Source of the DNA: Oscillospiraceae bacterium
GTDB lineage: Bacteria; Bacillota; Clostridia; Oscillospirales; Ruminococcaceae
Assembly: GCA_009778065.1 (NCBI GenBank)
Contig: WRKM01000009.1
Coordinates: forward strand, 1 to 64,000
Length of the DNA: 64,000 nt
Direction: 5' to 3'
Shown here in pieces: positions 1 through 3,894 of this stretch. The first letter of the stretch is position 1; every line of letters starts with the position of its first letter. Position numbers and translations under genes: made by a program. The notes beneath the pieces are model-generated. The model searched no databases. It saw only the letters and a program-made list of their open reading frames with translations, and was not told the DNA's origin.

Positions 1-63
1 TTGAAGAAGACCACGTTTTATCGGCTTTTGAGGGAGCATCGAGCAAAGAAGGGCAAAAAATAA
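1..63 (+). CDS. C-terminal end of a probable serine recombinase (partial, cut by window start)
   Basis: Frame 1 is open from the first base to TAA at 61-63 and gives 20 residues, with KTTFYRLLREH near the middle. This resembles the recognition helix of the C-terminal helix-turn-helix (HTH_7) of serine resolvases and invertases, which typically ends in S-x-x-T-x-Y/F-R-x-L. The basic tail after it is also usual. The catalytic domain would lie left of the window and cannot be seen. The position directly beside a pair of inverted palindromic sites is what is expected for an invertase next to its own switch. With only 20 residues visible the family call is an inference; it could be the tail of another HTH protein. 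Confidence 0.5.
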   Translation: MKKTTFYRLLREHRAKKGKK

Positions 64-64
64 G

Positions 65-90
65 GTTCGCAAAGGTGTACCTTTACGAAC
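65..90. repeat. Left inverted-repeat site (candidate recombinase crossover site)
   Basis: A near-perfect palindrome with 12-bp arms (65-76 and 79-90, one mismatch) around the central dinucleotide GT at 77-78. Its core AAAGGTGTACCTTT recurs in inverted orientation at 201-228. A palindrome with an asymmetric 2-bp centre is the form of serine-recombinase crossover sites. It could also act as a hairpin terminator for the gene ending at 63. Confidence 0.6.
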
Positions 91-107
91 TTTGTTATTA
101 TGGAATA

Positions 108-136
108 ATTTTACATAAAAATAATCATTTTGTCAA
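108..136 (-). promoter_or_regulatory. Leftward promoter inside the invertible element
   Basis: On the minus strand, -35 TTGACA (131-136) and -10 TAAAAT (108-113) are separated by exactly 17 bp: 11 of 12 consensus bases. It points away from the gene at 256. I found no comparable rightward promoter between 91 and 255, so the dockerin gene appears to lack a promoter in this orientation. Confidence 0.65.
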
Positions 137-200
137 GCTTTTCAAGAAAAATTTGTAAATAATGCACATATATTGTCAGCTTTATTTGTGATATACGACC

Positions 201-228
201 TTTCCGTAAAGGTACACCTTTACGGAAA
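201..228. repeat. Right inverted-repeat site (candidate recombinase crossover site)
   Basis: A perfect palindrome with 13-bp arms (201-213 and 216-228) around AC at 214-215. Read on the minus strand it contains the same AAAGGTGTACCTTT core followed by ACG as the left site, with one difference over the shared 20 bp. The outer bases differ (GAAC on the left, GGAAA on the right), so the two sites are not simple copies over their full length. Confidence 0.6.
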
Positions 229-255
229 AATAATTAACACTTGGGAGGAAACGAA

Positions 256-2115
256 ATGAAAAAACGTATTTTATCAACTATTATCGCGGCGGCGGTAATT
301 TTCTCATTGTCGGCGTGGTTGACGATAATAACAAGAGCGAGCGACACTTACCCCACCCCCGCAGGGTTTAACGACAATGACTATCAAAAGTTGGTATCAT
401 TCGCATTACAGGACGATAATTTGACTAAGTTAGGGTGGACTTTAGACGACCTCGCCACATGGACGGGGATTACTTGGACTTCTTGGACTTATGATGAATC
501 AGAAATTAGGGTTTCAGACATACATCTTTACTCTAAGCAATTATCCGGAAAGCTTGATGTGTCTGATTTTACCGCGCTTATTTATTTGGAAGCACCTCTT
601 AATCAACTCACCGAGCTTGACGTGTCAAATAACACAAATCTTTTTCGATTACTTTTAGTAAATAATCAACTTACCGAGCTTGATGTTTCAAGTAACACAG
701 AACTTAGGCAATTGTATGTAATAAATAATCAACTTACCGAGCTTGATGTTTCAAGTAACACAGAACTTATGACCTTGGATGTATTAAATAATCAACTTAC
801 CGAGCTTGATGTGTCAAAAAATACCGCGCTTATGAGTTTGAATGTAACGATTAACCAACTCTCCGAGCTTGATGTTTCAAAAAATACCGCGCTTACGAAT
901 TTGTGGGCATGGGATAACCAACTCTCCGAGCTTGATGTGTCAAAAAATACCGCACTTAGGGGTTTGAATGTAACGAGTAACCAACTCACCGAGCTTGATG
1001 TATCAAAAAATACTTTGCTTGAGAAACTTACGGCAACGAATAACCAACTCTCCGAGCTTGATGTATCAAAAAATACAAGGCTAACAGAGTTGGATTGCTC
1101 TGATAACCAACTCACCGACATCTCTTCGTTTGAAGATTTAGAAAATCTTATTTTTGTTGATGTGAGAAATAATTTTTTAGACTTAAACAGCGAACCGGTA
1201 AAAGCTTCAATAACTAAAATACAAGCAACAGTTGACAAGAACGGTGGGACGTTTGAGTACTCTCCCCAAAACACTATCAACGAACCCGATGAATCTAACA
1301 CTTTAGATAATGTAATAGAAAACGCTCTCAAAGGCGATAATCCCCGAATCGTCCTTGATGAAGACACAGGAAGCGTTATATCCGAAGACGCACTCGATAT
1401 GATTAAAGACAGTGATAAGGTTGTTGAAATTGAGCTTGAAAGCGGCTTAGTCATAACAATAGACCCCGATAGCATCACAAATAACGCAAAGGCTATTGAC
1501 CTCAATATTGAAATAGCACTGACAAGTACAGGAAATCAAATCCCCGGCGTCCCCGCGAACACACTCGCTATTACGCCGCCGCCCACTACTCACGGTGAGT
1601 TCGGGTTTACAATTAGTTTTAACATAACAGAAGAAGAACTCTTAAACGCCGGAATTAACGGTAACGCAAGCGTGAAATTGTACTATGGTAACGCCGATGG
1701 AACATTTACAGATATGAACCAAAATATAAAACGCAACCCCGATGGTTCTATAACCGTTTCAATTTCAAAGTTCTCGTTCTATGTTCTGTCGGAATTAAAT
1801 CTCGATACCACAAAACCCGAAAATAATAATAACGGCGGCAATAATTACAACCCCGGAAATTATGTCCCGTCTGTCCGTCCACCCTCGGCTATTAGTCGGG
1901 TACCTACCGCCGCAACCTCAACGACAACGCAGATTAAAGGCGACATAAACGGAGACGGCGTACTTAACGCAAGCGATGCACTCGCGATTTTAAAGCACGT
2001 ATCAGGCGTTGAAAAATTAGAGGGCGACGCACTCGAAGCCGCTGATGTAAACGGCGACGGCGTAGTTAATGCAAGCGACGCACTTGAAGTTTTGAAGCTT
2101 GTCGCAGGCGCGTAG
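256..2115 (+). CDS. Secreted leucine-rich-repeat protein with C-terminal type I dockerin
   Basis: A secreted protein of 619 residues. The start is ATG 256, 7 nt after GGGAGG; a TTG at 241 in the same frame sits on that ribosome site and is unlikely. A basic, hydrophobic signal peptide covers the first ~30 residues. About ten leucine-rich repeats of ~21 residues follow (roughly 85-290, pattern NQLTELDVS-N-T-L), then a beta-rich region, an Asn/Gly/Pro linker (~520-550) and a dockerin in the last ~60 residues. The dockerin has two calcium-binding F-hand repeats, DINGDGVLNASDA and DVNGDGVVNASDA. Dockerins bind cohesins on scaffoldins, so this protein is probably docked to a cellulosome-like or cell-surface scaffold; the repeats suggest protein or glycan binding. 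The preceding 230 bp look like an invertible promoter. Terminator at 2151. Confidence 0.85.
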   Translation: MKKRILSTIIAAAVIFSLSAWLTIITRASDTYPTPAGFNDNDYQKLVSFALQDDNLTKLGWTLDDLATWTGITWTSWTYDESEIRVSDIHLYSKQLSGKLDVSDFTALIYLEAPLNQLTELDVSNNTNLFRLLLVNNQLTELDVSSNTELRQLYVINNQLTELDVSSNTELMTLDVLNNQLTELDVSKNTALMSLNVTINQLSELDVSKNTALTNLWAWDNQLSELDVSKNTALRGLNVTSNQLTELDVSKNTLLEKLTATNNQLSELDVSKNTRLTELDCSDNQLTDISSFEDLENLIFVDVRNNFLDLNSEPVKASITKIQATVDKNGGTFEYSPQNTINEPDESNTLDNVIENALKGDNPRIVLDEDTGSVISEDALDMIKDSDKVVEIELESGLVITIDPDSITNNAKAIDLNIEIALTSTGNQIPGVPANTLAITPPPTTHGEFGFTISFNITEEELLNAGINGNASVKLYYGNADGTFTDMNQNIKRNPDGSITVSISKFSFYVLSELNLDTTKPENNNNGGNNYNPGNYVPSVRPPSAISRVPTAATSTTTQIKGDINGDGVLNASDALAILKHVSGVEKLEGDALEAADVNGDGVVNASDALEVLKLVAGA

Positions 2116-2199: not shown

Positions 2200-2523
2200 T
2201 CAAACTGAACTGTAAATAACCTCACCGGTTTTAATGACGTGTTCGACAAAACCGCTTGGGTCGTAGGTTTCGTCTAACAAGTGCGGTTCAATGCCGCTAA
2301 AATCACCTTTGTCCCAACAAATACGGCTCAAATCAATACGAGCATTATACCAATCTTCGCCTTTTATATCTTTTACCAATACTGCTATATCTATATCACT
2401 CCACTCATGAGGGTTTCCGTTGACATAAGAGCCGAAAAGAATAACCTTGTCGGGATTCAAAATCTTTTTGACAGCTTCTGAATATTCGCTTGCTATTTTC
2501 CTAACCTTTGTTTTATCCAACAT
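2200..2523 (-). CDS. MNT-type nucleotidyltransferase, copy 1
   Basis: A small (107-residue) minimal nucleotidyltransferase. It carries the full GSX10DXD signature (GSY at ~31-33, DID at ~43-45), so it looks catalytically intact. In MNT/HEPN toxin-antitoxin systems such proteins neutralise a HEPN RNase toxin by adenylylating it. Here no HEPN gene is adjacent, so it is an orphan. ATG start 2523 is preceded by GGAGG. The second copy at 3571 is near-identical in its C-terminal part and more diverged between about residues 46 and 75. The role without a partner is unknown; a solitary antitoxin is the simplest reading. Confidence 0.8.
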   Translation of the reverse strand: MLDKTKVRKIASEYSEAVKKILNPDKVILFGSYVNGNPHEWSDIDIAVLVKDIKGEDWYNARIDLSRICWDKGDFSGIEPHLLDETYDPSGFVEHVIKTGEVIYSSV

Positions 2524-3570: not shown

Positions 3571-3894
3571 TCAAACTGAACTGTAAATAACCTCGCCCGT
3601 TTTAATAACGTGTTCGACAAAACCGCTTGGGTCGTAGGTTTCGTCTAATAAGTGCGGCTCAATGTCATCGAAATCGTCTTTTTTCCAACGAATTTTTTGC
3701 AAAATATCACACATATCATATCGCTCTTCGTCCGCAATACCGCGAACCAACACAGCAACATCAATATCACTCCACTCATGAGGGTTTCCGTTGACATAAG
3801 AGCCGAAAAGGATTATTTTTTGAGGATTAAGAACGCTTTTTACTTCCAACGCATATTTGTCGGCTACTTCCCTAACTTTTTCTTTACAAAGCAC
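3571..3894 (-). CDS. MNT-type nucleotidyltransferase, copy 2
   Basis: 107 residues with the same intact GSX10DXD site as copy 1. The start is GTG 3894, 7 nt after GGAGG; it aligns with the ATG of copy 1. The C-terminal ~30 residues are identical to copy 1, while the region after the active site has diverged more. It is preceded by an overlapping stump of a HEPN-like gene (3884-3988), which supports descent from a HEPN/MNT toxin-antitoxin pair in which the MNT protein is the antitoxin. Confidence 0.8.
   Translation of the reverse strand: MLCKEKVREVADKYALEVKSVLNPQKIILFGSYVNGNPHEWSDIDVAVLVRGIADEERYDMCDILQKIRWKKDDFDDIEPHLLDETYDPSGFVEHVIKTGEVIYSSV

Follow-up and report, generated by a model that had tools for sequence, protein, structure and literature searches.

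The first bases of the window, the 64,000-nucleotide stretch of DNA analysed here, raise the question of whether the gene starting at position 256 is turned on and off by inversion of a short promoter segment, as the original prediction claimed. The window starts at base 1 of contig C9, in a genome of 43 contigs (2.55 Mb, 98.81% complete). Our analysis indicates that the locus is very probably a self-contained phase-variation switch, consisting of a serine recombinase gene, an invertible 137-bp promoter and a target gene.

Anatomy of the promoter segment and its neighbouring genes

Two palindromic sites, neither assigned to a strand, were located at positions 65-90 (left site, GTTCGCAAAGGT GT ACCTTTACGAAC) and 201-228 (right site, TTTCCGTAAAGGT AC ACCTTTACGGAAA). 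Their centres, GT at 77-78 and AC at 214-215, are complementary and lie 137 bp apart, and the sites are mutually inverted as originally described. A scan of the 64 kb for like palindromes paired 90-200 bp apart found none besides these two, and 20 local shuffles produced zero such pairs. Based on the comparison with relatives (see below), the predicted invertible segment extends from 77 to 215, again without a strand, and its centre-to-centre distance of 137 bp corresponds to 13 helical turns.

The segment carries a minus-strand promoter at 108-136 (TTGACA at 136-131, a spacing of 17, TAAAAT at 113-108) which points away from the gene at 256, also in agreement with the original prediction. Inverted repeats thus flank a promoter, as in an inverton. 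A scan of window positions 1-400 returned seven promoter-like sites compared to 1.1 expected from shuffles; the minus-strand promoter scored 11/12 and the other six 9/12. The claim that no comparable rightward promoter precedes the gene was therefore upheld in terms of strength (11/12 versus 9/12), but a weak rightward candidate is present within the segment (82-109, TTTACG-16-AATAAT with TG before the second hexamer, 9/12). When the inversion was computed, both centres were regenerated and 71 nt separated the 11/12 promoter from the ATG at 256, in line with a gene that is OFF in the present orientation. A Shine-Dalgarno-like GGGAGG was read from the sequence at 243-248 on the plus strand. In the present orientation about 30 nt separate the -10 end of the promoter from the left centre, a distance shared by many relatives. 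Read leftward, the left site resembles a terminator (55-90, minus strand), with an 11-pair hairpin (fold of -14.9 kcal/mol) followed by CTTATTTTTT, and it faces the OFF transcript; a terminator scan also called it, at 90-65 with the tail CTTATTTTTT. The gene-ward T-run is absent from the right site.

The target gene (256-2115, plus strand) encodes a leader peptide (by eye), leucine-rich repeats (LRR) and a type I dockerin (domain at 1936-2097), and the leader together with the LRR and dockerin domains is all that suggests the surface location named in the original prediction. The genome contains 25 dockerin matches, 20 of them over the cut-off, and no cohesin match was found in this 98.81% complete assembly, which gives no support to a role in a cellulosome. 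Among the literature matches that combine invertible promoters and serine recombinases, which left most subscription journals uncovered, dockerins were not mentioned.

The last 20 codons and the stop codon of a serine recombinase gene (LKKTTFYRLLREHRAKKGKK, then stop) occupy positions 1-63 on the plus strand, ending 1 base before the left site, which fits the predicted promoter inversion by a serine recombinase. The remainder of the gene is located on contig C25 (C25:42858-43463), where the frame is open with zero internal stops; the right end of C25 and the left end of C9 (window 1-118) overlap by exactly 118 bases. The assembly break itself was considered as evidence of inversion and rejected, since an inversion fork would be expected near 87-90, whereas window base 118 is where C25 stops. 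Window positions C9:1-60 match residues 183-202 of a second recombinase, on contig C27, and the C25 and C27 recombinases are 93% identical. The C27 protein (202 aa) scored 84.5 bits against PF00239 Resolvase (cut-off 23.3) and, with this domain and a size within the range of about 180-210 aa, belongs to the resolvase/invertase subfamily of serine recombinases. Against the NCBIfam Mpi model (NF009949) it scored 38.7 bits, below the cut-off of 272. A search of solved structures with the family profile placed Sin nearest (2r0q, E 5.7e-37), followed by gamma-delta resolvase, Tn3 resolvase and DNA-invertase chains, with nearly full-length matches. The recombinase adjoining the sites, which is predicted to act on them, has the invariant residues S10, R8, R68 and R71, which we take to be catalytic.

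A search for the same palindromes elsewhere in the genome revealed a second pair on C27, also 137 bp apart. The exact site core occurs five times in the whole genome, namely in the window pair, in the C27 pair and once at the C25 end, the latter being the window's own left site within the contig overlap. At the C27 locus the recombinase is followed by the site pair and then by another dockerin gene. The two loci are homologous from a point some 20 bp ahead of the recombinase start as far as the signal peptide, beyond which the protein is different. This duplication of the module supports the inversion reading; the window and C27 copies are both in the same orientation. Small nucleotidyltransferase-like genes (by eye) were also seen beside both switch loci (window 2200-2523 and 3571-3894; L016:1870-2187), and their products end alike, with EPHLLD...YDPSGFVEHVIKTGEVIYSSV or near.

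Conservation, inverted centres and helical spacing in relatives

Recombinase relatives (E<=1e-50) were found in 76 of the 297 family genomes, source genome included, and among 13 same-genus genomes listed one had a match at E<=1e-70. GTDB contigs held at least 584 confirmed relatives, of which 80 were kept; among the matches listed, the nearest are mostly Oscillospiraceae MAGs with isolate names that suggest termite guts. At the DNA level, the matches of window positions 60-300 in the 297 family genomes were short and weak outside the source genome (best E 4e-6). The first set combined 89 family-genome loci (29 + 60, out of 97 non-own recombinase rows by count, with 8 left out), 3 own loci and the 80 GTDB loci, giving 172 regions, or 169 once identical regions were removed.

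A site pair was detected just downstream of the related recombinase in 75/169 distinct regions at a score >=22, a threshold that was chosen after the first-set scores were seen, compared to 0/127 windows taken 1 kb further on and 0/169 shuffles. At a score >=20, there were 78 regions, 1 control and 0 shuffles. In a hold-out drawn from a search of the whole order (67 regions taken, 8 skipped as duplicate or too short), the same threshold of 22, unchanged, recovered a pair in 35/59 regions. The pair was not detectable in 94/169 first-set and 24/59 hold-out regions, indicating that not every recombinase relative sits directly on a switch; one of the 94 is the recombinase on contig C12, whose associated element starts about 1.2 kb beyond it. 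Viral regions contained pairs in 8/69 cases, and a phage record (L361) carried an AT/AT pair 137 bp apart. Two of the plasmid relatives (571 records) were examined: a Priestia locus (L359), where there is no pair but a single AT-centred palindrome on the upstream side of the recombinase, and an Enterococcus locus (L360), where there is a pair. On the latter, the E. faecalis plasmid pGTC3 (NZ_KY303941.1), the related recombinase is followed by AG/CT sites 94 bp apart and then by a regulator (Rrf2) and an LRR protein.

The centres of the 71 non-redundant modules were GT/AC in 40, AC/GT in 15, AG/CT in 4, CT/AG in 2, AA/TT in 1 and AT/AT in 9. All 62 asymmetric pairs were inverted, as were 33/33 in the hold-out (2 of its 35 being AT/AT), giving 95/95 asymmetric non-redundant pairs in total with complementary centres, a further point in favour of the inversion reading. 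Nevertheless, the dinucleotide class itself varied, with a minimum of 19 changes across the recombinase tree for both sites together. Centres that are always inverted when asymmetric are what a 2-bp crossover requires in an inversion reaction. In the AT/AT modules, which are self-complementary, the orientation of exchange would not be fixed. CsrA-like proteins (by eye) lie directly downstream of the switch in L069, L105, L112 and L113, all with AT/AT centres.

The centre-to-centre distances ranged from 94 to 176 bp and clustered near 94, 105, 115, 126, 137, 146, 157 and 166 bp. The best period was 10.35 bp (R=0.71, n=71), and equally strong jittered sets were obtained in 0/5000 trials; without the 134-140 group, R was about 0.73 (n=45). 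The hold-out gave R=0.78 (n=35) with a Rayleigh p value of about 5e-10, a value that assumes independent modules after a redundancy filter of shared k-mers only, and jittered sets were as strong in 0/10000 trials; without the 134-140 group, R was 0.85 (n=19). At a period of 10.5 bp, the mean phase corresponds to a whole number of turns. The 8 viral pairs were spaced 94, 114, 115, 116, 135, 138, 138 and 139 bp. As a second control, the turn class changed at least 51 times on a FastTree tree of 110 recombinases, so the spacing is not one inherited length. We read this spacing as a requirement that both sites point to one side of a short loop, and this suggests that no remote enhancer takes part in synapsis. 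Among the literature matches listed, which left most subscription journals uncovered, nothing was found on helical spacing of invertons.

Promoter orientation and copies in both orientations

Promoter direction was called from consensus scores with approximate matrices, and on this basis the stronger promoter in 72 modules (71 plus the window) was OFF (recombinase-facing) in 43, ON (gene-facing) in 10 and undecided in 19. Restricted to the 35/72 promoters that beat their own shuffles at 0.05, the calls were 30 OFF, 4 ON and 1 undecided; the hold-out gave 22, 3 and 10, and 13, 2 and 1 at 0.05. The -10 end was found 27-33 or 37-42 nt from the faced site in 30/35 modules with a significant promoter. 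At least 5 T within the 8 bases outward of the site occurred at 25/72 left sites compared to 3/72 right sites (Wilcoxon test on T counts, 4.6e-6), and at 10/35 versus 1/35 in the hold-out (p value 0.003). The left palindrome was longer in 45/72 modules and shorter in 21/72, the window's being marginally shorter. OFF transcripts should accordingly end at the left site and ON transcripts read through the right site. The T-run was absent in 47/72 modules, which limits the terminator trait to some members, the window's included.

Copies in both orientations were found within the same genome, as the inversion reading would lead one to expect. A second family of elements (family 2, L041-L044) comprises ~206-bp repeats with an invertible promoter on four contigs (C1:40792-40997, C2:31811-32019, C6:100814-101013 and C12:84287-84495), with half-copies at C25:42697 and C31:10866-10942 (L167). 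Their sites have a GGTGTAC core and outer arms AACTATAAAAA..., the arms differing from those of the window sites, and the four elements have a flank on one side in common. Relative to that flank, and with C1 as the reference, the C2 and C6 segments were identical unflipped in 107/111 and 95/111 columns, respectively, whereas the C12 segment was identical in 100/111 aligned columns when flipped and in 53/117 unflipped, the flip being bounded by the sites. The C2 element precedes a dockerin-like gene, from which its promoter is directed away (OFF), and the C31 half-copy has the same 5' leader as the C2 gene with the promoter toward its gene (ON). The C31 switch looks as if it had been locked ON through loss of the other site. 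The C6 element, whose promoter points away, precedes a LytTR/GHKL operon and a paralogue of the window LRR protein. Beside the C1 and C2 elements, HTH genes (C1:41292-41606 and C2:32056-32702) were noted into which the promoters point antisense, the C2 gene having a possible toxin partner (by eye).

Family-2 elements either have the C12 recombinase (79% identical) about 1.2 kb away or are remote from every recombinase. The C1 element in reverse reads like the C12 element minus about 1.8 kb (the recombinase and a second gene), and thus resembles a non-autonomous derivative of a C12-type element. Loci L065, L071 and L411 have a common recombinase and segment, and their homology is lost 3 bp past the right-site centre; the junctions look as if re-targeted at the right site itself. 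In other related pairs homology ends 17 to 94 bp past this centre, and in L379/L386 and L069/L105 it persists much further.

Across species, the segments of L120/L226, L218/L231 and L374/L414 matched best when inverted and had opposite promoter calls; L158/L233 also matched best inverted, with one promoter call undecided. At 19-40 bp (E 6e-5 to 1e-3), these matches are short and may partly reflect the promoter consensus. Orientation flips were also sought among near-identical phage copies and discarded as evidence, as L261, L262 and L358, out of 20 phage-recombinase relatives, all point the same way.

Competing readings and relation to known systems

The anatomy, the conservation of the module, the inverted asymmetric centres, the helical spacing and the paralogues in both orientations make it most likely that the adjacent enzyme flips the promoter and thereby turns the secreted repeat protein on and off. 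The recombinase would bind both palindromic sites and join them on one short loop with a length of a whole number of helical turns; cutting at the 2-bp centre and rejoining would then leave the promoter flipped. In the present OFF orientation the promoter would fire toward the recombinase and its transcript would stop at the left-site hairpin terminator, while in the ON orientation the transcript would pass the right site into the LRR-dockerin gene. We infer that this recombinase is the one acting, that the window copy still flips and that transcription follows orientation.

The terminator-like left site and the majority of OFF-facing promoters (30 versus 4 ON at p<=0.05, 13 versus 2 in the hold-out) would also suit palindromes that are terminators or regulator operators around the fixed promoter of a short leftward RNA. 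We consider this highly improbable, since centres are complementary in 95/95 asymmetric pairs even as the dinucleotide varies (at least 19 tree changes), and neither the serine recombinase beside the pairs nor the flipped paralogues would be explained. The dominance of OFF in assemblies also speaks for an alternative explanation, in which a former switch is now locked, with its anatomy intact and no inversion, while the gene is either silent or transcribed from some other promoter. Decayed or half copies do exist in the same genome (the C12 right site, C25:42697 and C31:10866); yet in the window copy both sites are present, the recombinase frame is open and the promoter is near-consensus, and the C27 copy is equally intact, so we regard locking as unlikely.

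The recombinase might instead be chiefly a transposase or resolvase, with the pair as its end or res site and the promoter incidental. Sin as the nearest structure by profile (2r0q), the look of the family-2 elements as internally deleted mobile elements, the TnpB/Cas12f-type domain in 3/62 downstream proteins and the loss of homology at 3 bp past the right-site centre in L065, L071 and L411 all lean this way. Resolution, however, acts on directly repeated crossover sites, whereas 95/95 asymmetric pairs here are inverted; moreover, the -10 lies at the two preferred distances from the faced site in 30/35 modules and the same architecture stands before unrelated genes. This makes a transposase or resolvase role quite unlikely, and the phase-variation switch remains the preferred reading.

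Invertible promoters served by serine recombinases are already known; what is new here is a compact, helically phased and partly mobile family. Mpi-type serine invertases and their invertible promoters have reportedly been described in Bacteroides fragilis by Coyne et al. in 2003. The likeness extends to a serine recombinase of ~200 aa, short inverted-repeat promoters, surface-gene targets and some sites far from any recombinase, such as the family-2 elements; in contrast to Mpi, the recombinase here is directly joined to the switch. The helically phased spacing of the present family may be a further difference. Sin differs as a resolvase on directly repeated sites, those here being inverted. 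Hin and Gin use serine chemistry on inverted sites with a 2-bp centre, as appears to be the case here, and 4m6f and 3uj3, PDB entries named DNA-invertase that are presumably Gin, were among the structure matches. We know of no enhancer for site pairs 94-176 bp apart. Hin/Gin DNA invertases use a Fis-bound enhancer, according to the available text of PMC3798978, whereas sites at the distances found here leave little room between them for such a recombinational enhancer.

A survey of invertons in gut communities (PMC11892184), in its available text, describes two groups of repeat motifs, mostly from Firmicutes_A, that had not been published before, and deals with the same kind of phenomenon as the modules here. 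Those motif groups may already include some modules of the present family; the recombinase linkage, the helical spacing and the terminator sites are described here and are untreated in the portion of that text available.

More broadly, we tentatively propose, as a reading that is plausible if somewhat short of probable, that a broad serine-recombinase clade inverts enhancer-free on loops of 9-17 turns, with selection holding the sites on one helix face. The recombinase-promoter module would be a movable on/off cassette before unrelated genes (adhesin-like, CsrA, GGDEF/EAL, methylase, BrxA, TnpB-like), re-targeted via its own right site. It would also give off invertible-promoter elements without a recombinase, which would spread through the genome and be switched in trans. 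With a DNA persistence length of ~150 bp, the question of how a serine invertase could invert a segment of about this length without a remote enhancer becomes testable, and from the quantised spacing one would expect inversion to be abolished by 5 added bp and restored by 10. A serine recombinase with paired GGTGTACC-like palindromes behind it, spaced by whole turns, is also a simple signature by which candidate phase-variable genes can be picked in Clostridia without reads.

Domains were scanned in 61/67 downstream proteins, the six left out being short or doubtful frames, and in the window's own, making 62. The set was highly diverse: CsrA was found in 5, LRR_5, AMP-binding and Cas12f1-like_TNB in 3 each, EAL, GGDEF and BrxA in 2 each, and DNA methylase and dockerin in 1 each. 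In L160 and L256, TnpB-like proteins (by eye) lie directly downstream of the recombinase and site pair, and could be cases of a phase-variable TnpB.
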